Assembly (NCBI GenBank): GCA_020721605.1
Contig: DYML01000008.1
Span: 1 to 39,860, forward strand
Direction of reading: 5' to 3'
Source: Anaerolinea thermophila
Lineage (GTDB): Bacteria; Chloroflexota; Anaerolineae; Anaerolineales; Villigracilaceae
Length of the DNA: 39,860 bases
How positions within the stretch are numbered: the stretch's first letter is position 1; every line of letters begins with the position of its first letter. The position numbers and the translations under genes are program-made. Of this stretch, positions 11,927 through 30,464 are shown piece by piece. The notes under the pieces were generated by a model, which saw nothing but the letters and a program-made list of their open reading frames with translations, was not told where the DNA came from and did not search any database.

Positions 11927-11936
11927 GGATATTTGC

Positions 11937-11942
11937 ATTATA
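11937..11942 (-). promoter_or_regulatory. putative -10 box of the M23 paralogue pair
   Basis: TATAAT on the minus strand overlaps the first possible ATG and ends 10 bases before the ATG at 11926. This implies a leaderless or very short-leader transcript. Confidence 0.4.
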
Positions 11943-12025
11943 TCTGTTTAGATTAAGCCTGAATGAAATTATGCGGCGGCGCTGCAATTTGCCAACGTCC
12001 GGTATGGAGATTTAAGGGTAGTGCA

Positions 12026-13648: not shown

Positions 13649-13655
13649 AAAGGCG

Positions 13656-13661
13656 ATTTTA
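13656..13661 (-). promoter_or_regulatory. putative -10 box for a leaderless transcript
   Basis: TAAAAT on the minus strand ends 7 bases before the ATG at 13648; no ribosome-binding site is present. Confidence 0.4.
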
Positions 13662-13740
13662 CCAGCGGAGAGGGAAAGCGGGGAATGGCGGTGTTTTTCA
13701 TTTTGCGGCTTTCTTAGGCGTAAAAAAACTTTGTCCTCGC

Positions 13741-13782
13741 ACAAAAAGCGGCAGATGCCTGAGGGCATCTGCCGCTTTTTGT
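13741..13782 (-). terminator. intrinsic terminator of the CBS gene
   Basis: A perfect 19-base stem (13741-13759 with 13764-13782), a 4-base loop and A/T-rich ends (ACAAAAAGCGG/CCGCTTTTTGT) lie just after the CBS gene and before the promoter of the next minus-strand gene. Confidence 0.88.
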
Positions 13783-13801: not shown

Positions 13802-14248
13802 TTATGACTGAAAGCCTGTTCCCATGATGTAATTTTCCAGCCCGCGAATTTCGCTTTCTTTGTTTTCAAATGCGGCTGCAATCACATCGCGCATGGAAAC
13901 CAAGCCTACCAATTGATCGCTCTCTACAACGGGCAAATGGCGAATGTTGTATTGTTTCATTAATTCAACGCATTGATCGGCGGTTGTTTCCATTGTGACA
14001 GTGATCATTCGGGCTGACATGACATCCTTAATCTGAGTGTCTTTTGCCGCGCGTCCTTCGTTCTCGCCTTTGTAGAGGTAGTCGCGCTCGGTGTAGATGC
14101 CAACAATTTTCTCGCCCTCGGTGACAAGCAGGGCGCCAACATGGACTTCTGTCATCTTTTTGACGGCTTGTAAAACAGTGTCTGTGGACTTAATGGAAAA
14201 GTTCATTTCAGAGTCTTTTAACTCAAGCAACTTGCGAACAGTGGTCAT
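13802..14248 (-). CDS. CBS-domain pair protein
   Basis: The 148 residues are made up of two CBS motifs and little else. The first carries VGALLVTEGEKIVGIYTERDYLYK, the second IRHLPVVESDQLVGLVSMRDVI, each ending in the (T/S)xxD nucleotide-contact pattern. Such stand-alone pairs bind AMP, ATP, NAD or SAM and usually report energy state to a partner. AAGGAGG lies before the ATG. It is transcribed alone, beside the end of fdhA, and resembles the CBS region of the ATPase at 28926-29945. The partner is unknown. Confidence 0.88.
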   Translation of the reverse strand: MTTVRKLLELKDSEMNFSIKSTDTVLQAVKKMTEVHVGALLVTEGEKIVGIYTERDYLYKGENEGRAAKDTQIKDVMSARMITVTMETTADQCVELMKQYNIRHLPVVESDQLVGLVSMRDVIAAAFENKESEIRGLENYIMGTGFQS

Positions 14249-14441: not shown

Positions 14442-17255
14442 TTATAATTCTTTCACTACTTCCACTTTGACGGCGGTGACTTTATATTCGGGAATTTTGG
14501 CAATCGGGTCGAGCGCCGCGTGGGTCAGTTCATTGGCTGAGGCGTTGGGGAAGTGGAAGTTGGCGTAGACCATGCCGGGCGGCACGCGGTCGGTGACCCA
14601 TGCCTGCGCTTCGATAACGCCGCGCCGCGAGGTGACGCGCACAAATTGTTTTTCGGCGAGTCCCAATTTATCGGCGTCATACGGGCTGACTTCGATCAAT
14701 GCTTCGCCGTAGACTTTCATAATGCCTTCGGCGCGGCGCGTCATTTGCCCGCCGTGCCAGTGATATAACACGCGCCCGGTACTCATAATCATCGGATAAT
14801 CGTCGTCGGGTTTTTCGGCAGGCGAAACGTGGTCAATGGGCATGAACTTGCCTTTGCCGCGTGTGAATTGTTTGGTATGCAAAATGGGCGTGCCAGGGTG
14901 GTCGGGCGTTGGGCAGGGCCATTGCAGGCGTTCCCCCGCTTCGAGCCGCGCATGGGAGATTCCGCCGTAGGATGGAGTGAGCGCGTTGATCTCCGCCATG
15001 ACTTCGGACGTGTTGGCATATTCCCAGCCAGAAAAAGGCGCTTCGGACGGAATCCGCTCTGGGGTCGCCAGCAGGATGCGCTTCGCCAACTCCGCTGTAA
15101 TCCACCAATCATCCCGCGCATCGCCCAGCGGATCAATCGCCTTGTGTACCATCTGCACGCGCCGCTCGGTGTTTGTGAATGTGCCAGTCTTCTCGGCAAA
15201 GGAAACGCCGGGCAGCAGCACATCGGCATACGCTGAAGTTTCAGATGGGAAAATTTCCTGCAAGACGAGAAAGCCAAGTTGCTCAAAAGAGTGGCGGATG
15301 TGTTTGGTGTTTGGATCAGACATGACGGGGTCTTCGCCGAGGACGTAAAGCGCGCGGGTTTTGCCTTCGAGAATGCCCGGCATCATTTCGGTCACGGTCA
15401 AACCAACTTTGGTGTTGCTGGTTGCGCCCCACGCTTTTTCAAATTTTTCGCGGGCTTCCTCTTTGGTAACAGATTGATAGGCGGGATACACGTCGGGCAA
15501 GCCACCCATGTCACACGCGCCCTGTACGTTGTTTTGTCCGCGCAACGGATTGACGCCGCCGCCAGGTTTGCCCATGTTGCCGAGCAGCATTTGCAGGTTC
15601 GCCAAATCCATCACGTTGCGGACGCCGACGATATGTTGCGTAATGCCCATCGCCCACATCACCGCCATCGGTTTGCTTTCTGCCATAATTTCTGCGGCTT
15701 CGTATATTTTTTCAACAGGCACGCGGGTGATTTCTGCAACCAGTTCAGGCGGATATTGCATGACGGTGGCTTTGAATTCGTCGAAGTTTTCGGTGCGCTC
15801 TTCGATGAAAGATTTATCCTCCCAGCCATTTTTGAGGATGATGTACATGATTCCGTTGAGCAGGGCAATATCGGTGCCGGGCTTCTGGCGCAGATGGAGG
15901 GTGGCAAACTCGGTGATGTCAATTTTGCGCGGGTCGGCGACGATGAGTTTTGCGCCGCGCTGACGAACCGCCTGCCGCAGCATGGTGCCAAAGACGGGGT
16001 GCTGCTCGCTGGTGTTGGAACCAATGATGAAGAAGGCTTGCGCCTGCTGCGAAACGTCATCCATTGAATTGGACATTGCGCCCGAACCGAAGGAGGCAGC
16101 CAGACCGGCTACCGTGCTGGAGTGTCAGAGACGGGCGCAGTGGTCTATGTTGTTGGTTCCCAAGACCTGCCGCGTAAATTTGTTCATCAAATAATTTTCT
16201 TCGTTGGTGCATTTCGCCGAAGTAAGCACGCCGATGGTATCTGCGCCGAATTCTTTTTTGATACCCGCCAATTTTTGCGAAGTGATGTCGAGCGCCGTAT
16301 CCCAATCGGTTTCGACCCAATCCCACTGATTGCTGGTCGCTGACCCTTCGGCATTGCTCAGGGCAAGCGGCTTGCTGATAAACGGCTTCTTCTTTCCCTC
16401 CAGCAAATACCGCCGCACCTGTGGCTTTAAAAGCCGCTCAGGGTGATGAATAAAATCATAGCCGTAACGTCCCTTCACGCATAAATGATTCCCGTTGACG
16501 GGTGCCTTCTCTGTGGAAGTAACGCGGATGACCTTGTTGTCTTTGACGTTTAACTCATATTGACAGCCGACGCCGCAGTAGCCGCAGGTGGTCATCACCA
16601 ATTTGTCAGGTTTGCCCGCGCCCATGGACATTTTATTATCCAATGCGCCGGTGGGACAGTACGCCACGCACGCGCCGCAGGATTCGCAACGCGCATCGAG
16701 CATGTCTGTATCTGCGCCGGGGACAGGGTGCGTGTTGATTCCGCGCTCTGCCATGCCCCACACAAAACGCCCCTGAATATCGGTGCAGGCGCGGACGCAG
16801 CGGGTGCATTGGATACACTTGTTCATATCCACCCAGACAAAGGGATTGGGGTCGCTATTCACCGCGTAACGCGGCGCGGGAGCCATGCCCGTTTTTGCAT
16901 CCACGCCGTAGTGGCGCGCCCACTGCATCAGTTGGGTTTCCTGCTTCTGTCCGTTTTCATATCCAGCATCATAATAATTGGACATCAGCATTTCGAGGAT
17001 GGTCTTGCGGGTGGTCTCGATCTCAGGGCTGTGGGTGACGACCTCCATACCGTTGGTGACTTCCATTGTGCAGGATGCCATCGGGGTGCGCCAGCCTTTT
17101 ACATCCACCACGCACAGGCGGCAGCCGCCATAGGCTTCGAGGTCTGGGTGATCGCACAGAGTGGGAATGGTGACTCCGACTTGTTGTGCGGCTTGCAGTA
17201 CGGTCATCCCTTCTTCTGCCTGTACGTCTTGTCCATTGATTTTGAGATGGATCAT
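14442..17255 (-). CDS. fdhA: selenocysteine formate dehydrogenase, catalytic subunit
   Basis: This is one 937-residue protein interrupted by a UGA at codon 377 (16125-16127), read as selenocysteine. It should catalyse formate/CO2 interconversion in the cytosol. N-terminal [2Fe-2S] ligands are C34, C45, C48 and C62; the His-Cys [4Fe-4S] motif of NuoG is absent. Two ferredoxin clusters follow (C147/150/153/157; C190/193/196/200), then CGYCGVGC with C259, and the molybdopterin domain. CARL-U-HSSTVAGLAASFGSGAM is the catalytic region; E. coli FdhF has Sec at the matching place. A SECIS hairpin lies at the right distance downstream. A repeat-like insertion (PLALSNAEGSA, about residues 296-306) sits before the Mo domain. 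The maturation protease gene is immediately upstream. Confidence 0.93.
16095..16113 (-). promoter_or_regulatory. bacterial SECIS element in fdhA
   Basis: On the mRNA, GGUAGCC, loop GGUCU and GGCUGCC form a 7-base stem (one G-U pair). The loop begins 18 bases after the UGA. E. coli fdhF has the same GGUCU loop sequence at the same distance, where SelB binds. Confidence 0.85.
16341..16370. repeat. REP-like sequence inside fdhA
   Basis: TGACCCTTCGGCATTGCTCAGGGC is an imperfect palindrome (CCCT...AGGG) of the style of dispersed intergenic CCTTCG/CTCAGG repeats. It encodes the LALSNAEGSA segment in frame, with no counterpart motif in the paralogous NuoG-like protein. Confidence 0.4.
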
Positions 17256-18001: not shown

Positions 18002-19429
18002 TTAATCTCGTGTTAGGGTTTGCCGCAACGTGCCGTCTGCGTTTAAGACTTCCACTTGAATTGGCATTTGCCCCACCGCGTGAGTTGAGCAGGATAGGCA
18101 GGGGTCGTAGGCGCGGATGGCGGCTTCGACGCGGTTTAACATGCCTTCGTGGATTTCTGGACCCTTCACATAGGTCTTTGCCACGCTGTCCACTGCGTTG
18201 CTCATCGCCCAGTTGTTGTGACCGGTGGAAACAATTAAATTTACTTTGAGCAGTTTGCCGTTTTCATCGGCAGTGTAGTCGTGGATCAACGTGCCGCGCG
18301 GGGCTTCGATCACGCTCACGCCATGTCCAGTGTAATTTTTGCGGGTGTTGAGAATATCGGTGCTGAGAATGTCGGGGTCATTGCATAGCGCGCCAACTCG
18401 TTCTACGGCAAAGAGGGCTTCAATCAGGCGGGCGTAATGGTAGTAGAGTGTGTTTTCCACTGGCTTGCCATTGTTTAGGCTTTTGAAGGTTTTGAGTTCT
18501 TCATTTGCAAGTGGGGTGTCAATTTTTTCGGCAAGGTTGAGCCGCCCCAGGGGACCTACGCGGTAAACGCCGTTTGGGTAGCCCATCTTTTTGTAAAATG
18601 GAAATTTTAGATATGACCAGGGTTCAACGTGTTCTTGAATGATGTCTAAATAATTGGCAACGGGGAAGCGCTCCAACTCTGCGCCTTCACGGCTTATTAG
18701 CCGCACATTGCCTTCGTAGAGTTCCAGCCCGTTTTCTGGGGTGGTTAATCCAAAATAGCCGGTGGGGAATACGGCGAATTTGTTAATATCCTCCATATTT
18801 TGTTCTGCCCATTCTTTGATAATCTTTAAGCCAACTTGCACCGTTTCAATTGCCGCATCTACACCTTTTAGAATCGTATCGCGTTCCGGGCTGGTTAGGC
18901 TTTTGTTTACGCCGCCGGGCAGGGCAAAGACTGGGTGAATTTTTCTTCCGCCGAGGGTTTTTATAATTTCCTGCCCGAACTTGCGCAGCAGTACGGCTTT
19001 GACGGTTAAGTCTGGGTTTGCGCCAATTAGACCAAGTACATTGCGAATTTCTGGCGCTGCATCGAAGCCAAGCAGTAAATCGGGACCTGCGAGTTCAAAG
19101 AAGTGCATTCCGTGACTTTGAACAATTTGCCCCATGTGCATTAATTCTCGTAGAAGGTTTGCGGGGCGGGGCGGGGTCTGCCCGGAGATTGCATCGCCGG
19201 CTTTGGCGGCGCCAAGGTGATGGCTGACCGGGCAAATTCCGCAAATGCGCGGGGTGATTTCGGGCATTTCAAAATACAAACGCCCTTCGCAGAATTTTTC
19301 AAAACCTCTAAATTCGTTGACGTGCATGTAGGCATGGTCAACGGTGTTGTCTTCCTTCATGTGAATGGTCACTTTTGCGTGACCTTCGATGCGGGTAACA
19401 GGCTCAATCGTTATTTTTTGCGCAGTCAT
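18002..19429 (-). CDS. hoxH: [NiFe] hydrogenase large subunit (HoxH-type)
   Basis: The 475-residue catalytic subunit binds the Ni-Fe(CN)2CO centre. The L1 motif is [11 protein letters not shown] (61-71) and L2 is DPCLSCSTH near the C-terminus, followed by a 25-residue tail for protease removal. The short, soluble sequence and its neighbours HoxY, HoxU, HoxF and HoxE place it in group 3d (NAD-reducing, bidirectional). Relatives also occur in bifurcating HydABCSL enzymes of group 3. CGGAGGTC precedes the ATG. It is the last gene of the hox set, 87 bases after hoxY, with a heptad array in between. Confidence 0.93.
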
Positions 19430-19516: not shown

Positions 19517-20059
19517 TTAGTGCCAGTGGAGCAGTTTGTCTTTCAACTCCGGCTTGCGTCCTTGTGCCAGTTCCGATAGAACGTAAACGATGACATCTGC
19601 GTCGGGCGGGCAGCCAGGGACGTTGTAATCTACTGGCACAACTTCGTGAATGGCGCGTGTTTTGGTCATGGTTGCCAGTTCGGGGTCATTGGGAATTTGG
19701 CTGCCAGGTTCGTTGCTTTCGGCATCTACATAGGCTTGTTGGAGCGCCGCTTCTACGCCGCAGAAGTTGCGCATGGCAGGTACGCCGCCAAATACGGCGC
19801 AGTCTCCCAGGGCAACAAGGATTTTGGCGCGTTTGCGCATTCTGTGGGCAACTTCTTCGCTGGCGGTGTTGTTAATGCCGCCTTCCAGTATGCCTACGTC
19901 TACGCCGTTTTCGTCTGGTTCTTTTAGGTCAGTGATTGGGCTTGCGCGCAGGTCTATCATTTCCAGCACTTGTAAAATGCGTTCGTCCATATCCAGCAGC
20001 GACATGTGACACCCCGCACAGCCGCACATCCAATCGGAAGCAATTTTAGGTTTGTTCAT
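19517..20059 (-). CDS. hoxY: [NiFe] hydrogenase small subunit (HoxY-type)
   Basis: The 180-residue subunit carries the proximal [4Fe-4S] cluster next to the NiFe site. Its ligands are in CGCAGC (residues 12-17), GDCAVFGG and VPGCPPDAD. It is short, like HoxY, and lacks the twin-arginine signal and extra clusters of membrane hydrogenase small subunits, so it works in the cytosol. It follows the NuoG-like gene by 18 bases and feeds electrons between HoxH and HoxU. A weak GAGAG lies before the ATG. Confidence 0.92.
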   Translation of the reverse strand: MNKPKIASDWMCGCAGCHMSLLDMDERILQVLEMIDLRASPITDLKEPDENGVDVGILEGGINNTASEEVAHRMRKRAKILVALGDCAVFGGVPAMRNFCGVEAALQQAYVDAESNEPGSQIPNDPELATMTKTRAIHEVVPVDYNVPGCPPDADVIVYVLSELAQGRKPELKDKLLHWH

Positions 20060-20077: not shown

Positions 20078-22066
20078 TTAATTCAACGATACGCTTGACT
20101 TGCGCTCCAGAATGGCTTTTTGCCAATCGGTTTTTAAGGTCATGTGCATGTGCCTGGCAATTTCTTGTAGAACGGTTAGATTGTCGCGCACATTTTCGGG
20201 CGGGGTGATCGCTTTTTGCGCTTTTTGCATTCGCCCGTCCAGGTTGATGTAACTACCTTCCTGCTCTGACCAAAGCGTGACCGGCAGTACAAGATCCGCT
20301 TGTTCTGTTAGGTTGGATTCGTAGCAGGTTTGCGCAATTAGATAGGGCGCTTTGGAAATTCGATCCATGAATGATTTGGAAATGTAGTCATCGCCTGCTG
20401 CCACGTAGACCGCCTGCTGTCCGTTTAGTTCAAAGGTGGTATCCAGACCCAGGAGGCTGGCAATTAGGCTGTTGGCTTCCCCTTTGACTGAAATCAGCCC
20501 AAAGCGTTCTTCATCTACTGCGCCGACCAACACCGCCAGGCGATAAAGTTCTTCGATCAGGTTTTTATCATGTTGGGCGGTAATGCCCTTGCCAAAGAGA
20601 ATAACGGGAGAAATGGAGCGCGCCAGCGTTTGTGCTGTGTATGTCAGCTCGTCTATGGAAATGCCTGTGGCACTGATTGCTTGTTCAATGAGTGAGTCGG
20701 CATGGGGGAGGTTTAGCGGGGTGCGTCCCAGACCTTCTTTAATGATGATTGCCTGCAAGCCTTTCAGCAGCGCCAGGTCTGACCCACGCTTGGTTTTGAG
20801 CGTAACGCTTGTCAGATAGTCTTGGTCGCTGATTTCTGGGTCAATTTGAATGATGTGTATTCCTTTGGGTAAGTTGCGTTTAAACAAGAACCCGGCAACC
20901 ATGTGGCTGCGGTTGGTATTTGCGCCAATGCTTAACACGGTGTCGGCGTTGCGCAAGACATCCAGTTTCCCTTCAAATGCGCCATGTTCTTCGGCGTAGT
21001 CTGTTACCACTTTTGTGGGGACGCCTTCTTCAAGGCTGGTGACCAGGACGCTTTGAAATTCTTGGGCGAATAATTCTTTGAACGCGCTCAGGGCTTCTGC
21101 CGGCAGGCGGGTGGATGCAATGGCAGCAACGCCATTTTGGCTGCCCGCCAGAGGTTTTAATTTTTCTGCCAAAACGCTGAAGGCTTCTTCCCAGCCGACA
21201 GGTTCAAGTTTTCCGTTTTTGCGAATTTGCGGCGAGGTGATTCGTTTGCGTGATTCGTTCACGGGGTCGTAGCGCCCATGTTTGCACAGCAAACCGTGAT
21301 TGACAGCGCCTTCCCAGTCGCCTTCTATGCGAACAATGCGGTTGTCTCGCATCAAAATATTAATGGCGCATCCTACCGAGCAGCCAATACAGACCGATTT
21401 GATTTCGGTTAAGTCTTTGTCGTGCCCCTGATAGGCGCTGCCGCGATCTATTAACGCGCCGGTGGGGCAAACCTGTACGCAGGTTCCGCATTGAATGCAG
21501 GTACTTTCGCCCAGCGGTACATCTGTATCTGCAACGATCATGCTGGCTGCGCCGCGTTCTGCAACGGAGAGCGTAAAGTTGCCTACCAGGTCACTGCAGG
21601 CGCGAACACAGCGGCGGCAGAGGATGCAGCGGTTGTTGTCTAATATAAAATATGGGTGTGTGGTATCAACCTTAAAGTTGTCCCAGCCGGGTTGAATGCT
21701 CCAGTCGGTCATTTCTTGCTCGTAGGCTGCGTTCTGAAGTTCGCAATCGCCGCCGCTTACCTGGCAGAAGGGGCAAAAGTGGTTGCGCTCGCTAAACAGC
21801 ATGGAGAGAATAAATTTGCGCGATTTTTTGATCTCTTCTGTTTCTGTGTGTACTACCATTCCATTGCTAACAGGCAATGTGCAAGAAGCCATTGGCACCC
21901 GCCATTTTTCCACATCTACAATACACAGGCGGCACCCGCCGTAGGGCGATAATTCTTTATGATCGCACAGGGTGGGAATGTGAATTCCTGCCATTTGTGC
22001 TGCGCGCAAAACGGTTGTGCCTTCGGGGGCTTCAATCTGCTTTCCGTTAATCGTTATTTGCACCAT
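20078..22066 (-). CDS. hoxU: NuoG-like diaphorase subunit (HoxU plus Mo-domain extension)
   Basis: The 662-residue protein is an electron-transfer subunit. Clusters: [2Fe-2S] C34/C45/C48/C62; His-Cys [4Fe-4S] H96/C98/C101/C108; ferredoxin pairs C147/150/153/157 and C190/193/196/200; then C226/229/233 with C261. HoxU proper ends near residue 240; here a molybdopterin-oxidoreductase-like domain of about 400 residues follows, as in NuoG, with no Cys/Sec active-site motif, so it is probably structural. Start 22066 is chosen because GAGGA precedes that ATG; a frame from 22162 would overlap hoxF's end. It links hydrogenase and NAD(P)H subunits. Confidence 0.88.
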   Translation of the reverse strand: MVQITINGKQIEAPEGTTVLRAAQMAGIHIPTLCDHKELSPYGGCRLCIVDVEKWRVPMASCTLPVSNGMVVHTETEEIKKSRKFILSMLFSERNHFCPFCQVSGGDCELQNAAYEQEMTDWSIQPGWDNFKVDTTHPYFILDNNRCILCRRCVRACSDLVGNFTLSVAERGAASMIVADTDVPLGESTCIQCGTCVQVCPTGALIDRGSAYQGHDKDLTEIKSVCIGCSVGCAINILMRDNRIVRIEGDWEGAVNHGLLCKHGRYDPVNESRKRITSPQIRKNGKLEPVGWEEAFSVLAEKLKPLAGSQNGVAAIASTRLPAEALSAFKELFAQEFQSVLVTSLEEGVPTKVVTDYAEEHGAFEGKLDVLRNADTVLSIGANTNRSHMVAGFLFKRNLPKGIHIIQIDPEISDQDYLTSVTLKTKRGSDLALLKGLQAIIIKEGLGRTPLNLPHADSLIEQAISATGISIDELTYTAQTLARSISPVILFGKGITAQHDKNLIEELYRLAVLVGAVDEERFGLISVKGEANSLIASLLGLDTTFELNGQQAVYVAAGDDYISKSFMDRISKAPYLIAQTCYESNLTEQADLVLPVTLWSEQEGSYINLDGRMQKAQKAITPPENVRDNLTVLQEIARHMHMTLKTDWQKAILERKSSVSLN

Positions 22067-22148
22067 ATTTTCCTCTGTCATGTATCTGCTTATTAATGTT
22101 TTTGTGTTTGTACTTTGTTTACAGTTTGAAGTATGCAGTGAAATTTCG

Positions 22149-23789
22149 CTAAACTTTTTCACTCTCTTTTGAAAATTCGCCTACGCCGGTTGGGCAAACA
22201 CCCAGCCGAATGTGCGCTTCCACTTCGGTTCTGAAGTGTTTGAGCATATCGCGGATGGGGACTGTGGCAGTTTGTCCAAGCCCACAGTTGGATGCGCGTT
22301 CCATTTCGCTGGTAAGTTCCACCAGGGTGTCTAAATCTTCCAGTTTTCCAAGCCCTTGTGAAATGCGTTCCACAATCTCATAGGTGCGTTGTGTGCCAAT
22401 GCGGCAGGGTGTGCATTTGCCGCAAGATTCAAATCGAAAGAATTGCAAAAGCACTTTAACCAGGTCTACAATGCAGGTGTGCTGGTCGCAGATTAATAAT
22501 GCGCCTGAGCCGAGTGAAACGCCCGCCTTGCGGAAGGATTCAAAATCCATTGGTGTGTCTTGCAAAACAGCGGGAATGATTGAGCCGCTGCTTCCACCGG
22601 TTTGCGCAAGTTTGAGTGTGCTGCCAGGTTTCATGCCTTTGGCATAAATATTGATCACTTCGCGCAGGGTGATGCCCATTGGCACTTCGATTACGCCGCT
22701 GAAATTAACATTGCCCATAATGGTGTAGACTTTGGTGCCAGGGCTGGATGGAGTGCCAAATGATTTGTACCAATCTGCGCCGTTGCGAATGATGGCGGGA
22801 ATGTTTGCCAGAGTTTCTACATTATTTACCAGGGTCGGTTTGTCCCATAAGCCATTGGTAACAGGGTAGGGTGGTCGAGAGCGTGGTTCGCCGCGCTTTC
22901 CCTCCAGCGATTCAATCAATGCGGTTTCTTCGCCGCAGACGTATGCTCCTGCTCCGGCGTGAAGGTGGATGTTAAAGTTGAAATCTGTGCCAAAAATATT
23001 GCTGCCAAGGAAACCAAATTCTTTTGCTTGTAGAACCGCTTTTTCCATTCGGCGGTAGGCAAGCCCATATTCACCGCGAATATATACATATCCTTCATTT
23101 GCGCCGATTGCGTACCCGGCTATTGCCATTGCTTCAATAATAAGGTGCGGGTCGCCTTCCAGCACAATGCGGTCTTTAAATGTTCCCGGCTCGCTTTCAT
23201 CTGCATTGCAGATCACATATTTTTGGCTGCCTTTTGCGCTATGAACAAAGCGCCACTTGCGCCCTGTGGGAAAGCCTGCGCCGCCGCGTCCTTGCAAGCC
23301 AGATTTTTCGATGATCTCTATGGTCTGTTCGGGCGTATTTTCACTTAATATTTTCCCAAGCGCTTCGTAGCCATGATTGGCAATAAATTCTTCAATATTT
23401 TCGGGGTCAATGCGTCCGGCGTGCTCCAGAATAATGCGCTGTTCGGCAGGGTTGTAGCCTTTGTGCGAGCGAAGTGAGCCGATCTGCCCGGTTAATTGTT
23501 TGGGTGGCGCAAGCAGGTCTGGGATGATGCGCCCTTTGTATAAATGTTCTTCTACTAAATACCGCACATCGGCTACTTTAACAGGTCCATACACAACGGC
23601 TTCGGGGTAGACAATAACCAGAGGCAGCACGTTGGAATAGTTGATGTCTGAAATTGTTGAAACGTCCACCTCTTCTTGCAGCCCGTAGGCAGCCAGCGAT
23701 TCGTGTAAATGCTGCACAATTTCATTGGAACCCAGGCGGATGCTTTCAACATCATTGGAGACCACGATCATGGCGCGTTTTGTTTTCAT
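22149..23789 (-). CDS. hoxF: NuoF/HoxF-like NAD(P)H-binding subunit
   Basis: The 546-residue flavoprotein subunit has GRGGAGFPTGRKW (about 167-179) for NAD(P)H/FMN binding, a central flavin fold, and SCGKCTPCRIGT plus a later Cys for the [4Fe-4S] cluster. The N-terminal thioredoxin-like domain has lost all its cluster cysteines (residues 1-70 contain none), and there is no C-terminal ferredoxin extension, unlike the HndC-type protein at 24459-26243. AGGAG precedes the ATG. It sits between hoxE and hoxU, 10 bases from hoxE. NADH or NADPH preference cannot be told from sequence. Confidence 0.92.
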   Translation of the reverse strand: MKTKRAMIVVSNDVESIRLGSNEIVQHLHESLAAYGLQEEVDVSTISDINYSNVLPLVIVYPEAVVYGPVKVADVRYLVEEHLYKGRIIPDLLAPPKQLTGQIGSLRSHKGYNPAEQRIILEHAGRIDPENIEEFIANHGYEALGKILSENTPEQTIEIIEKSGLQGRGGAGFPTGRKWRFVHSAKGSQKYVICNADESEPGTFKDRIVLEGDPHLIIEAMAIAGYAIGANEGYVYIRGEYGLAYRRMEKAVLQAKEFGFLGSNIFGTDFNFNIHLHAGAGAYVCGEETALIESLEGKRGEPRSRPPYPVTNGLWDKPTLVNNVETLANIPAIIRNGADWYKSFGTPSSPGTKVYTIMGNVNFSGVIEVPMGITLREVINIYAKGMKPGSTLKLAQTGGSSGSIIPAVLQDTPMDFESFRKAGVSLGSGALLICDQHTCIVDLVKVLLQFFRFESCGKCTPCRIGTQRTYEIVERISQGLGKLEDLDTLVELTSEMERASNCGLGQTATVPIRDMLKHFRTEVEAHIRLGVCPTGVGEFSKESEKV

Positions 23790-23799
23790 GGGACTCCTC

Positions 23800-24297
23800 T
23801 TATTCGTAATTTTTTAAAATATCAGGGATTTGTTCCGGGGTGACATTGCCGTAGATGTCGTCATCTACCAGCAGTACAGGTCCTACACTGCATAGCCCTA
23901 AACAGGAGGTGGTCACCAATGTCCATTTGAAGTCGGGGGTGGTTTCACCATTGGCGAGGTTGAGTCTTTCTTGTAGTGCGTTCCAAATGGCTTTGCCGCC
24001 AACCACATGGCAGGGTGCGTTTTCGCAAAATTTAATCACATGCCGTCCGCGCGGCTTGGTGGAAAGCATATCGTAAAAACTGGCAAGCGCGTATAACTGG
24101 CTTTCGGCGATGTAGGTTTGTTCACCGGGGTTATGAATTTGTTTTTGTACTTCTCGAAACGCATTGCCAGGAATATGCCCAAATGCGTGATTGATCTCGC
24201 TGAGAATTGGAATCAGCGCCTCTCGGTTTCTACCGTGCTTTTCAATTGCCGCTTGAACGATTGCGGTGACATCTTGCTTAATGGCTAATTCGGACAT
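23800..24297 (-). CDS. hoxE: NuoE/HoxE-like [2Fe-2S] subunit
   Basis: The 165-residue thioredoxin-like ferredoxin is of the 24-kDa type. The four cluster ligands are visible as CENAPC and CLGLC. An N-terminal helical bundle (IPILSEINHAFGHIP) precedes them. It is the first gene of hoxEFUYH. The ATG at 24297 has GGAGG immediately upstream; a TTG at 24312 would place that ribosome-binding site inside the gene. The 161 bases before it, back to hndC, contain no promoter that could be recognised, so hox may be read from the hnd promoter. Confidence 0.9.
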   Translation of the reverse strand: MSELAIKQDVTAIVQAAIEKHGRNREALIPILSEINHAFGHIPGNAFREVQKQIHNPGEQTYIAESQLYALASFYDMLSTKPRGRHVIKFCENAPCHVVGGKAIWNALQERLNLANGETTPDFKWTLVTTSCLGLCSVGPVLLVDDDIYGNVTPEQIPDILKNYE

Positions 24298-24458
24298 CTT
24301 GCCTCCAATCAAACATTTTTCAGAATTCTTTTGGGCATTCGTCTTTTGATGTGCAGCGCTGAATGTTGCGTGGGATTCCTCTTGGAAGAACTTTGGAAGG
24401 CTTCCCTGTTTTTAGAGATTACGCGTTTTGTCTTGGGGCGAATCCCAGGTGGATGAAT

Positions 24459-26243
24459 TTAGGATAGCACATGAATGGCATTAAAGTTGCAGACTTGCAC
24501 GCAAACTCCGCAGTGTATGCAGGCTTTTTCGTCAATGATGTGCGTCTGTCTCCGCTCGCCGCTGATGGCATGTACCGGGCAATTTCTGGCGCAAACTGTG
24601 CAGCCTGTACAGGTTTCTGCTTGTACTTCAAAACGAATGAGGGGGCGGCAGACTTTTGCGGGGCATCGTTTTTCGTAAATGTGCGCTTCGTATTCGTGGC
24701 GGAAATGTTTAAGGGTGCTGATGACGGGGTTGGGCGCTCCCTGACCCAGCCCGCACAGGCTGTTGCGTGAAACTTCATAGCACAGGGCTTCAAGTTTCTC
24801 AATGTCTCCGTCTTCGCCGCGCCCGTCGCAAATTTTTTGCAGCATTTCCAGAATGCGGCGCGTGCCAACTCGGCAGGGGGTGCATTTTCCACAGGATTCT
24901 GCCTGTGTGAAATCCATGAAAAAGCGGGCAATATCTACCATGCAGGAGTTTTCATCTATGACTACCAGACCGCCAGAACCCATCATGGAGCCTGCTTGCG
25001 TTAGGGCTTCGTAGTCCAGCGGCAGATCCAGGTGCGTCTCGGTTAAACATCCGCCCATTGGACCGCCTGTTTGCACTGCTTTAAATTGTTTGCCGTCTTT
25101 TATTCCGCCGGCTACTTCAAAGATAATTTCGCGCAGGGTGATACCCATTGGAACTTCTATTAAGCCTGGGTTGGTGACATTTCCGCCCACCGCAAAAGTC
25201 TTTGTGCCTTTGGAGCGTTCGGTTCCCATGCTGGAGTACCATGCCGCGCCCTTTGTAATAATTTGCGGGATGTTGGAGTATGTTTCGACGTTATTGTTGT
25301 TGGTGGGTTTGCCCCATACGCCTTTGACTGAAGGAAAGGGCGGGCGGGGGCTTGGCTCTCCGCGCTTGCCCATGATGGATGCCATTAATGCGGTTTCTTC
25401 GCCGCAGACGAATGCGCCTGCGCCAACGCGCACTTCCAAGTCAAATGAAAAATCGGTGCCGAAGATGTTGCTTCCCAGCAAGCCGAATTCTCTGGCTTGT
25501 GTAATGGCAATGCGAAGGGTCTCAACTGCCAGGGGGTATTCTGCACGGCAATAGATGTAGCCATAACTTGCGCCGACTGCGTAGGCGCCGATGATCATGC
25601 CTTCAATGACGGAGTGCGGGTCGCCTTCCAGTACGCGGCGATTCATAAATGCGCCTGGGTCGCCTTCGTCTGCATTGCAGACCATGTATTTGGGGCTGCC
25701 TTGTACTTGGCGGGTGAGCGCCCATTTTTTGCCGGCAGGAAAGCCCGCGCCGCCGCGCCCGCGTAAACCGGAATTTGTTACTTCTTCAATGACTTTTTCC
25801 GGTGTCATTTCCAGCAGTGCTTTGCCAAGTGCCTGATAGCCGTCTATTGCCAGATAGTCTTCGATGTTGTTTGGGTCAATTTCGCCGCAGTTGCGTAAAA
25901 CAACGCGAACTTCTTTGGGGCGCAGGGGTCCCAGTTCTTCGTCTACGAGGGGTTTTATTACTTCTTGAAAGCGCTCAACAATTCGCCCTTTTAGAAAGTG
26001 TTCTTCCACCAGGTATGGAATATCATCCACGCTCATGCCGTGATAGTGAACTCCTTCAGGGTAGACCATCATCTCTGGTCCTTCGCTGCATTTTCCAATG
26101 CGCGAGGTTTCTAATACTTGAATTTCGTTAATGAGTCCTTGTGCTACAAATTCATCTTGAAGCGCGTCTATAATGTCGTGAGCGCCTTTTGCGAGGCACT
26201 CAGGGTCTACGCATACCAATACATGTGAACGATAAAACGCCAT
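24459..26243 (-). CDS. hndC: HndC-type NuoF-like subunit with ferredoxin tail
   Basis: The 594 residues form an N-terminal thioredoxin-like domain (C11, C16 and C52; the fourth ligand of a [2Fe-2S] site is not evident), a NAD(P)H/FMN domain (GRGGAGFPAGKKW, about 165), SCGKCTPCRVGT, and a C-terminal two-cluster ferredoxin (CTGCTVCARNC and CIHCGVCVQVC, last 60 residues). This is the HndC/HydB layout found in NADP-reducing and electron-bifurcating hydrogenases. It is last in hndA-ATPase-hndB-hndC. The usual next gene, the [FeFe] catalytic subunit hndD, is missing; hoxE follows. Confidence 0.9.
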   Translation of the reverse strand: MAFYRSHVLVCVDPECLAKGAHDIIDALQDEFVAQGLINEIQVLETSRIGKCSEGPEMMVYPEGVHYHGMSVDDIPYLVEEHFLKGRIVERFQEVIKPLVDEELGPLRPKEVRVVLRNCGEIDPNNIEDYLAIDGYQALGKALLEMTPEKVIEEVTNSGLRGRGGAGFPAGKKWALTRQVQGSPKYMVCNADEGDPGAFMNRRVLEGDPHSVIEGMIIGAYAVGASYGYIYCRAEYPLAVETLRIAITQAREFGLLGSNIFGTDFSFDLEVRVGAGAFVCGEETALMASIMGKRGEPSPRPPFPSVKGVWGKPTNNNNVETYSNIPQIITKGAAWYSSMGTERSKGTKTFAVGGNVTNPGLIEVPMGITLREIIFEVAGGIKDGKQFKAVQTGGPMGGCLTETHLDLPLDYEALTQAGSMMGSGGLVVIDENSCMVDIARFFMDFTQAESCGKCTPCRVGTRRILEMLQKICDGRGEDGDIEKLEALCYEVSRNSLCGLGQGAPNPVISTLKHFRHEYEAHIYEKRCPAKVCRPLIRFEVQAETCTGCTVCARNCPVHAISGERRQTHIIDEKACIHCGVCVQVCNFNAIHVLS

Positions 26244-26269: not shown

Positions 26270-26638
26270 TTAGATCGGTAAAACGTGGTCTTTTAGCGGG
26301 ACGCCGTTTTGTATATGTTGTTTCATAATTTGTTGGGCGATTTCGGCGTTAACTTTGCCGTATGTTATTTTATGCTCTTCACCAACAATTACTTGTAAAA
26401 TGGGTTCCTGCTCGCATAATCCAATGCAGCCAGTTTGTGTAACGCTTATGCCGCTTAAGTTGTTTGTTTCAATATAGTTTAAAACGCTTTTCATGGTGTC
26501 ACGCGCGCCGGCGGCAATTCCGCAGGTGCCCATGGCGACGATTACTTGTATATTTCCTGCGGCGGCTTTTGCTTGTTTCTTTTGCAGGGCTTCTTCTCGC
26601 ACACGTTTTAATTCTTCAAGGGATTTGATGGCAGGCAT
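26270..26638 (-). CDS. hndB: HndB-type thioredoxin-like ferredoxin
   Basis: The 122-residue protein resembles the HndB family of thioredoxin-like [2Fe-2S] proteins. A helical N-terminus (SLEELKRVREEALQKKQ) is followed by VAMGTCGIAAGA and TGCIGLCEQEP. Three of the cysteines are clear; the first motif has CGIAAGA where some relatives have a second Cys. AAAGGAG precedes the ATG. It is 12 bases downstream of the ATPase and 26 bases upstream of hndC. It would pass electrons within the HndABC diaphorase. Confidence 0.9.
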   Translation of the reverse strand: MPAIKSLEELKRVREEALQKKQAKAAAGNIQVIVAMGTCGIAAGARDTMKSVLNYIETNNLSGISVTQTGCIGLCEQEPILQVIVGEEHKITYGKVNAEIAQQIMKQHIQNGVPLKDHVLPI

Positions 26639-26650
26639 GGTTTCTCCTTT

Positions 26651-27220
26651 TTAGTTGGCTGCTTGCAGCGCAAGTGGTTTGATTCCTTCTTCCAACATGC
26701 TGCGTACAAACTTTAATATGCTGGGTTCGGTCATGGACATGTTGTCCAGTGTTTCTTTTAATTCGCAGTCGTCAAAATTAAACTCGTGGATTTGCCCAAG
26801 GCGGTCTGTGATTTGATAAATAAACACCCAATGAATGTGAGGGTAGGAAATAAGCAAGGTAAGAAAGGTCATGGAGAGATCGCCCAGCGGCATTCTGTCT
26901 ATGTGGCTGTGGCGAAAGGATGCTGTCACTTTTGTTCCCTTGCCTTGCTCTGTGATCAGGTTTAGTTCGCCTTCAGACATTTCTGCTGCCAGTTTTAACA
27001 GTGGAATTCCAAGCCCTACTTTGCGGGTTGTTCGTGTGGTGTAGAACGGGTCTAGCACTTGTTGCGCTGTTTTTTCGCTCATGCCGCGCCCGTCATCGGC
27101 TACACTAACCAAAAGCAGGTCGCTTTGCAGGTTTTCATAGACTGCCATGCAGATATTACGGCTTTGCGCCGCAACGCTGTTTTCAGCAATATCGAGCAGG
27201 TGCAGCGCAATTTCTCTCAT
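26651..27220 (-). CDS. histidine-kinase-like ATPase of the hnd operon
   Basis: The 189-residue protein has a GHKL ATPase fold: N-box LLDIAENSVAA, G1 box DDGRGM, DPFYTTRTTRKVGLGI as the lid/G2 region, and GKGTKVTASF. There is no phospho-acceptor His domain. The last 80 residues form an unassigned domain that includes HIHWVFIYQITD. Similar ATPases accompany hndA in hydrogenase operons of anaerobic Firmicutes and Thermotogae. It overlaps hndA by 4 bases, so the two are translationally coupled. It may be an anti-sigma-type or assembly factor; no experimental role is known to me. Confidence 0.82.
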   Translation of the reverse strand: MREIALHLLDIAENSVAAQSRNICMAVYENLQSDLLLVSVADDGRGMSEKTAQQVLDPFYTTRTTRKVGLGIPLLKLAAEMSEGELNLITEQGKGTKVTASFRHSHIDRMPLGDLSMTFLTLLISYPHIHWVFIYQITDRLGQIHEFNFDDCELKETLDNMSMTEPSILKFVRSMLEEGIKPLALQAAN

Positions 27221-27729
27221 GCTTCGTTTTGAACCTTTTTAATAATTTGTGGAAATTTGTTTGGGCGCTGTCGTCCATGAACTTCGTCGTTCACTACAAT
27301 GACAGGCGCCTGACTGCACGCGCCCACACAGCGGCATTCTTCCAGGGTAATCATGCCGTCTGGGGTGGTTTCTCCCAGTTCAATATTGAGTGTTTGTTTG
27401 GCTTTTTCAATTAATTGCCCTACGCCCGCCACATAACAGGCGGTTCCCAAGCAAAATTTGATGGTGTGCTTGCCACTCGGACGGGTTTTGAAAAATGAAT
27501 AGAACGTGACAACGCCGTGTACCTGCCCCAGCGGCGCATTTAATTTGCGGGCAATGTAGGCTTGCATGGATGGTGAGACATGCCCAATTTTTCCTTGTAC
27601 TTCATTAAGTACCAGCATGACTGCGCCAGGGCGTTCTTTGTTTTCGGCAATTGCGCTGTCTATCACTGCTTTTTGTGCTGCGTTTTTTAGCGGGTCGTTC
27701 ATGGGTGTTTCTTTTAGGAGACTTGTCAT
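27217..27729 (-). CDS. hndA: HndA-type NuoE-like [2Fe-2S] subunit
   Basis: The 170-residue protein is a 24-kDa-type thioredoxin-like ferredoxin with ligands CLGTAC and CRCVGAC, and the helical N-terminus typical of NuoE (LNEVQGKIGHVSPSMQAYIARKL). AAAGG lies before the ATG at 27729; an internal ATG at 27705 is possible. A Rex-like operator (27749-27766) ends 19 bases upstream. It is the first gene of the hndA-ATPase-hndB-hndC operon and differs clearly from the second NuoE copy (hoxE). Confidence 0.9.
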   Translation of the reverse strand: MTSLLKETPMNDPLKNAAQKAVIDSAIAENKERPGAVMLVLNEVQGKIGHVSPSMQAYIARKLNAPLGQVHGVVTFYSFFKTRPSGKHTIKFCLGTACYVAGVGQLIEKAKQTLNIELGETTPDGMITLEECRCVGACSQAPVIVVNDEVHGRQRPNKFPQIIKKVQNEA

Positions 27730-27748: not shown

Positions 27749-27766
27749 TTGTGTTATTTTTCACAA
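27749..27766 (-). promoter_or_regulatory. Rex-like operator before hndA
   Basis: TTGTGTTATTTTTCACAA matches the 18-base Rex consensus (TTGTGAA-N4-TTCACAA) at all but two defined positions. On the minus strand TTGTGA, 17 bases and GATAAA could be the overlapping promoter. It shares a 28-base context with 30447-30464. Confidence 0.7.
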
Positions 27767-27824: not shown

Positions 27825-28577
27825 CTACTTGTCAGGCATATTTTCGATCACCGCCTGCCGCTGGTTTTCGTTTTTTAGCGCCATGCAAATTTCGTGCAGG
27901 GTGGGTTCGGCGAGTGTGAAGACGGTTGATCCCAAAAATTCGTTTAGTCGGTGAACATCCCCGTTTTGGACGAGCGTGTAATTTTCAATTGCTGGAAATT
28001 TAATGTGTGCCTTTTGGGGGGTGATGTGGCGTGAAATTTCCAAGCCGAGGACGTGCCATTGGTCGGCGATTAAGCCGAGGGTGGGTAAAAGCCCGTAACT
28101 GCTTCGGTCTATGTGCGCGGGAATGACCAAGCCGCCCAGCGCATCAACTTCCTTAAATACGTCGTCAATGGAAAATTGAGTGGAGGCAAGCAACATGCGC
28201 GTTTCGGTTTGAATGTAATCTCCGCTTGAGTCTACGATGTATTGTTCGCCAAAAAATTCTGCGTGGTTTAATTCATTTGGCAGAGATGCATTCACTGCGG
28301 CTTGCCAGGCTTCCAGCAAGGGCAGGGTTTCAAATAAACACAACAGGTGAACATCTTCACGGGTTTGTACTTCCATGCCCGGTAAAACTTTAAGTCCGCT
28401 GCCCTCTGCCGCTTTTTGTACCGCCACCACATTGGCGCTGGCGTTGTGGTCTGTGATGGCGATGATGTGGATGCCGCGTTTCAGCGCTGCCTGCACAATT
28501 AATGGCGGGATCATTTCCACCTCGGCACAGGGTGAAAGCACAGTATGCACATGCAGATCAGCGCGAAATTTTTTCAT
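27825..28577 (-). CDS. PHP-domain metal-dependent phosphoesterase
   Basis: The 250-residue protein is of the PHP family. Metal-binding motifs include DLHVHTVLSPC (residues 6-16), ITDHN, and GDVHR near the end. PHP proteins hydrolyse phosphoesters such as nucleoside phosphates or act in DNA polymerases; this is the small stand-alone type. The start at 28577 overlaps the previous stop as ATGA, so it is coupled to the DRTGG-like gene. It is last of the four-gene sensor-like set behind the upstream Rex-like site. Substrate unknown. Confidence 0.85.
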   Translation of the reverse strand: MKKFRADLHVHTVLSPCAEVEMIPPLIVQAALKRGIHIIAITDHNASANVVAVQKAAEGSGLKVLPGMEVQTREDVHLLCLFETLPLLEAWQAAVNASLPNELNHAEFFGEQYIVDSSGDYIQTETRMLLASTQFSIDDVFKEVDALGGLVIPAHIDRSSYGLLPTLGLIADQWHVLGLEISRHITPQKAHIKFPAIENYTLVQNGDVHRLNEFLGSTVFTLAEPTLHEICMALKNENQRQAVIENMPDK

Positions 28578-28921
28578 TTTTGAATTTGGATGCCCATCTC
28601 CCAAAGTTTTCCGTCAATTTCGTAGGTTGGTTTGGGCGTGGAAAGTAAAATGACGCCTTGTTCGTTGGCTTTGGCAATTGCGGTGGCATCGGGTTGGGCG
28701 TCTTCGGTGATGATGATGGCGGCTATTTCCAGCAGGGCGGCAACAGCAACAATGTTGAGGTGGGCTTGTAGTGTGATCCAAAGATAGTTGCTTTTTGCGC
28801 CCGCCATAACGCAAGAGAGTAGGTCGGAGGTGTAGCCCCCTTCGGGTTGAATGGTTGTAAAGTCGCGCGTTTCAGTGAGTACGGTCAGGTTGAGTTGGTC
28901 AATAATTTGTTGAAGATTCAT
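28574..28921 (-). CDS. DRTGG-like domain protein 2
   Basis: The 115-residue protein is a paralogue of the one at 29932-30291: both start MNL(Q/K)(Q/K)II and share a GGYxxDLxSxV signature followed by alternating strands and helices (IVAVAALLEIAAIIITE). This resembles the DRTGG domain, a predicted ligand-binding module. The start at 28921 is preferred by comparison with the paralogue; 28933 would overlap the upstream stop. It lies between the CBS-ATPase and PHP genes. Confidence 0.7.
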   Translation of the reverse strand: MNLQQIIDQLNLTVLTETRDFTTIQPEGGYTSDLLSCVMAGAKSNYLWITLQAHLNIVAVAALLEIAAIIITEDAQPDATAIAKANEQGVILLSTPKPTYEIDGKLWEMGIQIQK

Positions 28922-28925
28922 AGGG

Positions 28926-29945
28926 TTAGTCATCCTTGCGTCCATTGAGGTTTTCGGTTGGCACATAGATGCGCATGGTCAGTTTTGTGCCTTTGCCGAC
29001 AGTGGATTCGATGTCCATTTTGTCTACACAGCGTTTAATATTCACAAGCCCCATGCCGGCGCCAAAACCCATTTCGCGCACCTGCTCGGTGGCTGTGGAA
29101 TAGCCTGGTTGCAGAACTTGTTCAATGTTTTCTATTCCTGGTCCGTCATCTGTGGTAGACATGGTGATGCGGTGCGATTCCACTTCCAACTTTAATATGC
29201 CGCCGTTGGTACTGTGGATGATGAGATTAATTTCCGCTTCGTATACTGCAATGCCGCAGCGGCGGGCAGTTTGCGGGTCTGCGCCAAGCCTTAAGAGGGC
29301 GCGTTTAATATGGCTGGACGCATTGCCGCCGTGCGTAAAATCATGGGCTTTAATGTTGTAGCGTAGTACAAGGGTGGTGCGGTCTGAGACAATATCTTCA
29401 AAGAGGTGGCTGGCTCTATATCGGCGGACTTCTTCTTCTTTGTAATCTTTTTGCAGGGCAACCAAAATGCCGCGCGTAATATCCCCTTTTGTAATCATGC
29501 CGACGAGTTTGTTGTTTTCGTCTAACACAGGCAAGCGCCCCAGGCGGCTGTCGCTAAATTTTTGAATGGCGCTGACGATGGAATCGTAACTGGCAACGGT
29601 GATGATCTTGCGGGTCATGTATTGGCTGACTGGCGCTGAAAGTTCATTTTTTTGCATGGCGCGGACAATGTCTTCCAGGCTGAGAATGCCAATTAGTTCA
29701 CTGTCTTTTACCACCGGCACGCCCGAAATATGATTGATCCGCAAAATTTCCAGTACGTTAGCGAGCGGCATTTCGGGGCTGGCAATTTTCATCTGGCGCG
29801 TCATTACTTCGTGAATTTTTAAATCATAGGACAGTTCTTCCACGCGGTTGATGGCGTTGGCATCTTTGTCCGTGATTGAGCGATCACGCCGTCCGCGAGT
29901 TTCTTGCGCGGTGGGTGTTCTGGTGAGAGGGCTAGTTGGACTCAT
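28926..29945 (-). CDS. CBS-pair plus anti-sigma-type ATPase
   Basis: The 339-residue protein joins two CBS motifs (LANVLEILRINHISGVPVV and SAIQKFSDSRLGRLPVLDE, residues 55-165) to a C-terminal GHKL ATPase of RsbW/SpoIIAB type. The latter has an N-box AVYEAEINLIIHS, G1 DDGPGI, and GFGAGMGLVNIKRCVD. Such a protein could sense adenylates with the CBS part and control a partner by phosphorylation. No sigma factor or anti-anti-sigma factor is in the window. The start at 29945 overlaps the previous gene by 14 bases. Confidence 0.85.
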   Translation of the reverse strand: MSPTSPLTRTPTAQETRGRRDRSITDKDANAINRVEELSYDLKIHEVMTRQMKIASPEMPLANVLEILRINHISGVPVVKDSELIGILSLEDIVRAMQKNELSAPVSQYMTRKIITVASYDSIVSAIQKFSDSRLGRLPVLDENNKLVGMITKGDITRGILVALQKDYKEEEVRRYRASHLFEDIVSDRTTLVLRYNIKAHDFTHGGNASSHIKRALLRLGADPQTARRCGIAVYEAEINLIIHSTNGGILKLEVESHRITMSTTDDGPGIENIEQVLQPGYSTATEQVREMGFGAGMGLVNIKRCVDKMDIESTVGKGTKLTMRIYVPTENLNGRKDD

Positions 29946-30291
29946 TTGATTCAAAACTGGGCAGTCCCGCCTGATGTAGCCGCCCGCTTAGTTCAAACAT
30001 GCCAAAGGGACTGCTGATTAGCGGGATATTTTCCTGCGCAGCAATCAGTAAAGTTTCGGCTTGCGGTTGTTTTCCGCGTACAAAAATGATGGCGTGAAAT
30101 TCCGCCATTTGCGCCGTGCGAACCACCTGTGGGTTGGTAAGACCGGTGAGCAAAACCGAATTTGGCTGGCTGAAGGCGAGTACGTCACTCATTAAATCTG
30201 CGCCATAGCCGCCGTTGATTTCTATGTTAATGTTTGTTTGGGGGGTGAGCAGGTGACCGTTTGCCAACTCGATAATTTTTTTCAAATTCAT
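29932..30291 (-). CDS. DRTGG-like domain protein 1
   Basis: The 119 residues include the INGGYGADLMSDVLAFSQP signature and an alpha/beta core (AEFHAIIFVRG...IPLISSPFGMFELSGRL) like the DRTGG domain. This is the first gene of the sensor-like set and lies about 155 bases after the Rex-like operator at 30447-30464. The family is thought to bind small ligands in partners such as phosphotransacetylase; here it stands alone, so the ligand is unknown. It overlaps the CBS-ATPase gene. Confidence 0.72.
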   Translation of the reverse strand: MNLKKIIELANGHLLTPQTNINIEINGGYGADLMSDVLAFSQPNSVLLTGLTNPQVVRTAQMAEFHAIIFVRGKQPQAETLLIAAQENIPLISSPFGMFELSGRLHQAGLPSFESNESN

Positions 30292-30446: not shown

Positions 30447-30464
30447 TAGTGTAAATTTTCACAA
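30447..30464 (-). promoter_or_regulatory. Rex-like operator before the sensor-like set
   Basis: TAGTGTAAATTTTCACAA matches the Rex consensus except at two defined positions. The minus-strand context CTAGATTGTGAAAA is identical to that at the hndA site. The surrounding 196-base gap to fdhD holds nothing else recognised. Confidence 0.65.

Follow-up and report, generated by a model that had tools for sequence, protein, structure and literature searches.

Genes at the locus

The 39,860-nt stretch of Anaerolinea thermophila DNA analyzed here (contig DYML01000008.1 of GenBank assembly GCA_020721605.1, positions 1 to 39,860, hereafter the window) carries on its minus strand a quartet of small genes directly ahead of genes for an HndA/HndB/HndC-type NADH-flavin unit. 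The genome is 3.2 Mb in size and 86% complete, and its nearest named relatives are metagenome-assembled genomes (MAGs) of Anaerolineae. The quartet encodes two DRTGG-like proteins (DRTGG1 and DRTGG2), a fusion of a CBS pair with an RsbW-like ATPase, for which the name CBSHAT is used here, and a PHP-domain phosphoesterase; a second GHKL ATPase, HAT, is encoded among the hnd genes. The open reading frames (ORFs) and domains named in an initial annotation of this DNA were found again, at the same minus-strand coordinates, in the ORF list and in Pfam searches. The principal genes and sites are the following.

30447 to 30464: palindrome resembling a Rex operator, between FdhD and DRTGG1, reading TTGTGAAAATTTACACTA on the minus strand (pattern match)
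29932 to 30291, minus strand: DRTGG1, a stand-alone DRTGG-like protein of 119 aa encoded at the head of the quartet (Pfam DRTGG, below cut-off)
28926 to 29945, minus strand: CBSHAT, CBS pair plus RsbW/SpoIIAB-like GHKL ATPase (Pfam, conservation, predicted fold)
28574 to 28921, minus strand: DRTGG2, second DRTGG / HPr-kinase-N-terminal-like protein (Pfam, above cut-off)
27825 to 28577, minus strand: PHP-domain phosphoesterase (Pfam PHP)
27749 to 27766: palindrome resembling a Rex operator, between PHP and HndA, reading TTGTGAAAAATAACACAA on the minus strand (pattern match)
27217 to 27729, minus strand: HndA / NuoE-like 2Fe-2S subunit (Pfam 2Fe-2S_thioredx, 3e-47)
26651 to 27220, minus strand: HAT, second GHKL ATPase, between HndA and HndB (Pfam HATPase_c, 8e-12)
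26270 to 26638, minus strand: HndB-like 2Fe-2S protein (domain match; Cys motif conserved)
24459 to 26243, minus strand: HndC / NuoF-like NADH-FMN subunit carrying additional 2Fe-2S and 4Fe-4S domains (Pfam)

The ORF list gives the minus-strand order FdhD, DRTGG1, CBSHAT, DRTGG2, PHP, HndA, HAT, HndB, HndC. The quartet forms a first block (30291-27825) in which neighboring genes abut or overlap: the likely CBSHAT start, an ATG at 29945, lies inside the overlap with DRTGG1, and DRTGG2 and PHP overlap by ATGA. The second block, from 27729 onward, begins with HndA and HAT, which also overlap by ATGA. The gap between the two blocks measures 95 bp, and the one between FdhD and DRTGG1 196 bp. The quartet and HAT were initially described as a single set of five overlapping or abutting genes; this description stands for the quartet, whereas HAT is part of the hnd operon, where it follows HndA and precedes HndB, beyond the 95-bp gap with its own operator-like site.

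Association with NADH-flavin units

The domain set keeps its order across dozens of genomes, which argues against a chance grouping. CBSHAT was present in 64 of 199 Anaerolineae genomes, and in the DNA around these 64 loci the order DRTGG1-CBSHAT-DRTGG2-PHP-HndA-HAT-HndB-HndC is almost fixed. HndC-like proteins, called at E at or below 1e-150 (a threshold that also lets in some NuoF-like paralogues), were found in 59 of the 64 carriers versus 66 of the 135 non-carriers (Fisher p 4e-10), and in a Spirochaetota sample in 39 of 41 carriers versus 58 of 157 others (p 2e-12); both p-values are optimistic because kin genomes were counted as independent. The two Spirochaetota carriers that lack HndC have a NuoF-like gene 7-9 kb off. 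The cultured spirochaete Breznakiella homolactica is among the organisms that carry the quartet. Redox genes lay within 8 kb of CBSHAT at 54 of the 64 Anaerolineae loci, rising to 29 of 32 when only loci with 5 kb or more of DNA on each side are counted, and at 28 of 34 loci from Planctomycetota, Cloacimonadota, Thermotogota, Deltaproteobacteria and other phyla (the contig scan took in the best 80 loci, none labelled Firmicutes). Together, these counts tie the set to hnd-type redox genes across phyla.

HndC was kept elsewhere in the genome in all 22 checked genomes whose module is unlinked or nearly unlinked (mostly Spirochaetota), and 11 of the 16 loci read in such genomes had the order HndA-HAT-HndB-HndC. 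Passive linkage (hitch-hiking) was thereby ruled out, since co-occurrence persists where linkage has been lost. The catalytic end of the cluster differs between loci and may comprise [NiFe] hydrogenase, formate dehydrogenase, [FeFe] hydrogenase or complex I genes. As the catalytic partner changes from locus to locus, what stays constant beside the module is the HndA/HndC (NuoE/NuoF-like) NADH-flavin unit and not hydrogenase itself, and the association with NuoE/NuoF-type NADH units is well supported by these genome comparisons. In a Syntrophaceae MAG (L054, 4599-10972) the module stands among nuo genes, with four genes, the last of them NuoD-like, between CBSHAT and DRTGG2; in a Nitrospirae MAG (L064) it lies among complex I genes, with a NuoD-like gene just ahead of DRTGG1.

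Predicted Rex-type operators

Matches to the palindrome TTGTGA-N6-TCACAA occur in both intergenic gaps of the window, with two mismatches at 30447-30464 and one at 27749-27766. An identical 13-mer, TAGATTGTGAAAA, is present in both sites and has no other copy in the window. A pair of such sites within 40 kb is by itself only slightly out of the ordinary, and relatives were therefore examined. At loci outside the window's own genus, counting sites that match at least 10 of 12 positions, an operator-like site was found in 20 of 67 gaps before DRTGG1 (p 2e-12) and in 11 of 37 gaps before HndA (p 4e-8), versus 13 of 511 gaps before other genes; the frequencies are thus ~30% and 2.5%, respectively, and gaps at internal genes were at background level. 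Within the genus, most relatives have a site ~27-41 bp before HndA. A rex gene lies 0-254 bp upstream of DRTGG1 on the same strand at L070 (which has a 13/14 site), L073, L075, L077, L094 and L190, and the window genome also encodes rex. Both features of a Rex regulon, an operator upstream and rex in the genome, are therefore present if one or two mismatches are allowed. A pattern search of the genome returned 13 palindromic sites versus 4 for the reversed control, which is too weak alone to define a regulon. Other TTGTGA-N6-TCACAA sites of the genome (L202, L205, L208) lie near what by eye are a FixC/FixX-like pair and cytochrome-like genes, as would fit a wider redox regulon.

In Caldicellulosiruptor bescii, a Rex site (consensus TTGTGAANNNNTTCACAA) is located 39 bp before the five-gene hyd operon (PMC6391272, PMC8579813), and gel shifts support Rex binding upstream of hydrogenase genes (PMC6391272). 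By comparison, the window site at 27749-27766 lies 37 bp ahead of HndA, is predicted only, belongs to a member of the Chloroflexota, and has a counterpart before the DRTGG quartet. A predicted Rex-type operator common to both blocks is favored by these observations.

Conserved features of the module proteins

CBSHAT contains two CBS domains (Pfam, 5e-29) and a GHKL domain (HATPase_c, 2e-9; HATPase_c_2, 3e-9) in which the SpoIIAB/RsbW-type boxes are all intact. Among 136 relatives, the N-box E-x3-N (E231, N235) and the G1 box DxGxG (D261, G263, G265) are 100% conserved and the G2 box GxGxG (G290, G292, G294) is conserved at 99%; we take E231 and N235 to be the counterparts of the catalytic E and N of SpoIIAB. 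The same relatives retain the ribose motif S/T-x-x-D in both CBS repeats, as S84-x2-D87 (94/89%) and T147-x2-D150 (93/94%). In an AlphaFold model (pLDDT 86, pTM 0.47), the predicted fold of the second half matches SpoIIAB (1til; E 4e-12, TMt 0.81), and the model also resembles AcuB and CBS proteins whose solved structures contain AMP, ADP or Ap4A. The CBS fold and the S/T-x-x-D motifs suggest that CBSHAT senses adenylates. The NCBIfam anti-sigma F factor model matches CBSHAT with an E value of 4e-15 and a score of 55.9 bits, far under its equivalog cut-off of 135, which leaves CBSHAT outside that family.

DRTGG1 matches Pfam DRTGG (PF07085) over residues 30-108 with 20.9 bits (E 3e-4), below the gathering score of 25.2; its residues D32, S35, L38, Q55, R58, K74 and P76 are kept at 92-100% in 117 relatives. 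DRTGG2 scores above cut-off for both DRTGG (25.5 bits, cut-off 25.2) and Hpr_kinase_N (25.0 bits), and its invariant residues are a Y, a D, an S and the motif T-x-Q-x-H-x-N (residue numbering starts at window position 28909); a phmmer search of DRTGG2 against solved structures gave no match. The two proteins have separate sets of invariant residues, and each has an invariant serine in D-L-L/M-S. Pfam detected no DHH/DHHA2 catalytic domain in any of the block proteins, which sets them apart from the CBS-DRTGG pyrophosphatases.

The PHP protein matches PF02811 at 2e-10 (41.8 bits, above cut-off), and its metal ligands H9, H11, D43, H44, E69, H155, E180, D207 and H209 are 100% conserved in 110 relatives. 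PHP relatives include the 3',5'-nucleoside bisphosphate phosphatase and RNase families. The AlphaFold model of HAT (pLDDT 93.5) shows the entire protein as one GHKL domain near the MutL/TopoVI/GyrB ATPase domains (Z ~13). A separate C-terminal domain was considered and dropped, as residues 1-173 align to GHKL ATPase domains. HAT has no HisKA/DHp phosphoacceptor domain and no receiver was found among the block proteins, so that HAT does not classify as a two-component histidine kinase.

Gene fusions and variant forms

PHP and HAT are fused in a 392-aa protein at L053 and again at L045, both from Planctomycetota. In Spirochaetota, the kinase domain also occurs without the CBS pair, fused to DRTGG2. 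Pfam shows this fusion at L188, L195 and L196, and protein length alone points to it at L187 and L189; the Pfam scan of L186 returned no DRTGG match. An apparent HndA-HAT fusion at L168 was discarded, the junction containing an ambiguous base.

Other Spirochaetota carry the CBS-less kinase domain beside DRTGG1 and a HydS-like protein of 416-470 aa. This protein consists of Fe_hyd_lg_C plus FeS by Pfam at L180 and L193, and similar proteins occur at L182-185 and L192. At L191 the kinase and the HydS-like protein are fused, within the arrangement DRTGG1-[kinase-HydS]-PHP-HAT-HndA-HndB-HndC-FdhA. These CBS-less arrangements suggest that the CBS pair and the HydS-like protein share one sensor position to the same kinase family. 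The HydS-like proteins at L180 (6665-7993) and L191 (6810-8501) have degenerate H-cluster-like cysteine motifs (SSSCPA, SPCPAK, C-x2-GC). At two treponeme-group loci, L074 (9139-9987) and L080 (9090-9920), a HAD hydrolase gene lies between DRTGG1 and CBSHAT; Pfam identifies it as Hydrolase_3 in L074.

Remainder of the redox cluster

Beyond HndC, the minus strand continues with NuoE-, NuoF- and NuoG-like genes, HoxY, HoxH, a protease-like ORF and a selenocysteine-containing FdhA.

23800-24312, 22149-23789 and 20078-22162, minus strand: second NuoE-, NuoF- and NuoG-like genes (ORFs and Pfam)
19517-20059 and 18002-19429, minus strand: HoxY- and HoxH-like [NiFe] hydrogenase subunits (ORF translations)
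14442 to 17255, minus strand: FdhA-like molybdopterin subunit with one in-frame TGA (translation)

The TGA of FdhA reads as selenocysteine 377 in the context ...DHCARLUHSSTVAG..., which is typical of formate dehydrogenase. The next gene (13802-14248, minus strand) encodes a 148-aa stand-alone CBS-pair-like protein, possibly a second adenylate-sensing element of the cluster. It is followed at 8815-13768 (minus strand) by three adjacent paralogous lipoprotein-like ORFs which by eye appear to have LysM and M23-like ends.

Relation to known systems

The module is a known but functionally undefined neighborhood. Its clearest published counterpart is the hydrogenase operon Halsa_1862-1871 of Halanaerobium hydrogeniformans, which is listed as hydrogenase, NADH dehydrogenase, ferredoxin-like protein, histidine kinase, NuoE, PHP protein, iron-sulfur-binding hydrogenase, Fe-S protein, anti-sigma factor/serine-threonine kinase and an unidentified ORF, with no function given for the set and no operator or comparative analysis of it (PMC4237134). 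This operon substantiates the remark in the initial annotation that similar genes accompany hnd-type clusters in anaerobic Firmicutes. Its gene content and surroundings are largely those of the window, but its kinase is annotated without a CBS pair, a HydS-like protein lies alongside, and no DRTGG protein is named. In the [FeFe] hydrogenase operon of Acetobacterium woodii, HydE resembles the ATP-binding domains of histidine kinases, is not part of the enzyme, and has been suggested to act perhaps in assembly or signalling (PMC3315566). It is the HAT counterpart by position (after the NuoE-like subunit) and domain only, and no quartet is described for that operon (PMC3315566). The Halanaerobium gene list and the HydE remark were all that was found on the module in a search of the open-access literature, most subscription papers lying outside it; word searches of a review of multimeric hydrogenases and of the Bfu family paper likewise turned up no role for the set.

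Parts of the module resemble other regulatory systems. CBSHAT shares with SpoIIAB and RsbW the GHKL fold, the N-box, the intact G1 and G2 boxes and a structural match, but it has a CBS pair fused in front, and the block has DRTGG and PHP proteins in place of STAS, PP2C and sigma factor genes. CBS and DRTGG domains act together in the adenylate regulation of the CBS-DRTGG family II pyrophosphatases; in the window they are found in separate proteins and without a DHH domain. Some group C sensory [FeFe] hydrogenases are associated with HATPase_c (PMC11406978), and in Spirochaetota Fe_hyd_lg_C is fused to or lies beside the same kinase family; the window block lacks a group C sensory hydrogenase and has the CBS pair in the sensor position. 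The present analysis adds the CBS-fused variant, the distribution of the module, its fusions, the sensor swap and the predicted Rex-type operator.

Proposed function and alternatives

The initial annotation had proposed a dedicated signalling circuit that tunes the redox enzymes. The tie to hnd genes, the intact catalytic and ligand-binding motifs and the shared Rex-operator-like site speak for such a circuit, with the NuoE/NuoF-type unit as its partner rather than hydrogenase. That the module is a dedicated regulator of NADH-flavin units is quite probable. Since both blocks share Rex-type operators, a high NADH/NAD+ ratio would lift Rex from both, so that module and enzyme would be derepressed together. 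The CBS pair would read adenylates (AMP/ADP/ATP or Ap4A) and gate the attached RsbW/SpoIIAB-like serine-kinase domain, with the HydS-like Fe-S protein substituting as sensor input in relatives. The DRTGG proteins may be the switch partners of the kinase, in place of the STAS switch protein of classical partner switching, and PHP may be the opposing phosphoesterase that undoes the modification. HAT, whose gene lies among those of the enzyme and which is joined to PHP in certain lineages, would be an ATP-dependent element at the enzyme. This specific assignment of kinase and phosphatase is tentative. The combined picture, in which Rex controls and adenylates gate a circuit of kinase, switch and phosphoesterase that serves the NuoE/NuoF-type NADH-flavin unit of bifurcating enzymes, could equally well prove right or wrong. 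A broader proposal is speculative and somewhat doubtful: that the module represents a new type of partner switching, with DRTGG for STAS and PHP for PP2C. The kinase would then answer to a sensor of adenylates (CBS) or of the Fe-S/H2 type (HydS-like), and the circuit would act directly and post-translationally on the NADH-flavin unit of electron-bifurcating enzymes instead of on a sigma factor.

Several observations weigh against the combined picture. Only 6 of 20 Spirochaetota CBSHAT loci are linked to redox genes; the genes thus lie mostly apart from hydrogenase and formate dehydrogenase genes in that phylum as far as physical linkage is concerned, which is not the case in Chloroflexota or the other phyla. 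The loci with DRTGG1 and the kinase-DRTGG2 form (L186-L189, L195, L196) are found beside TetR/MFS/ThiF or unrelated genes, in genomes mostly without full HndC (ordinary NuoF only, or none), suggesting that this core serves another client. At L100, L104, L108 and L109, a two-gene DRTGG1-CBSHAT form occurs near HoxYH-type hydrogenase genes without DRTGG2, PHP or HndABC. No STAS antagonist, PP2C phosphatase or sigma factor was detected among the ten block proteins scanned with Pfam and NCBIfam, and any substrate named for the CBSHAT kinase is consequently a guess; the low pTM of the CBSHAT model also makes the relative orientation of its domains unreliable. Approximately 70% of DRTGG1 and HndA gaps have no recognizable operator-like site. 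Furthermore, the CRP consensus is likewise TGTGA-N6-TCACA, so Rex is favored but not proven.

Among the alternatives, a role in assembly or maturation, in which the two GHKL proteins would be ATP-driven chaperones that assemble the HndABC-type complex or load flavin or Fe-S clusters into it, with PHP and DRTGG as accessories, is unlikely. It would account for the location of HAT inside the structural operon and for a HAT fold nearest to the MutL/TopoVI/GyrB ATPase domains, as opposed to a kinase with a phosphoacceptor domain; however, the CBS pairs, the SpoIIAB-like kinase fold, the DRTGG domains and the HydS-like sensor that can fill the CBS position are components of regulation. In addition, the quartet is missing in about half of HndC-bearing Anaerolineae, and is therefore not needed to build the enzyme, a point that covers the quartet and not HAT alone.

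It is decidedly unlikely that CBSHAT is a true anti-sigma factor kinase holding a sigma factor encoded elsewhere and thereby controlling hnd and other genes. Although its GHKL domain matches both the anti-sigma F factor model and the SpoIIAB structure, and a gene of the corresponding Halanaerobium operon is annotated as an anti-sigma regulatory factor (PMC4237134), the model score is far from the equivalog cut-off, neither a STAS antagonist nor a sigma factor is seen in the block, the Rex-type site already accounts for transcription, and the kinase-DRTGG2 fusion points to a DRTGG partner.

Also quite improbable is a module that sets or senses a small messenger without protein phosphorylation, PHP degrading a nucleotide (e.g., pAp or Ap4A) read by CBS and DRTGG: the relatives of PHP, the joint presence of CBS and DRTGG in CBS-pyrophosphatases, which AMP/ADP/ATP and diadenosine polyphosphates regulate (PMC11172384), and the binding of Ap4A by the CBS domains of AcuB (PMC13039410), a structural match of the CBSHAT model, are in its favor, but it explains the invariance of the glutamate in the kinase-type N-box and the fusion of PHP to HAT less simply, and no synthetase is encoded.

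To our knowledge, it is not established how energy charge and NADH are made to limit the electron-bifurcating hydrogenases and formate dehydrogenases of anaerobes. A conserved, Rex-linked set that accompanies these enzymes across many phyla and combines a nucleotide-type sensor with a kinase-like ATPase and a phosphoesterase would open this question to direct tests, and would give a function to genes long catalogued next to hydrogenases with no role attached.

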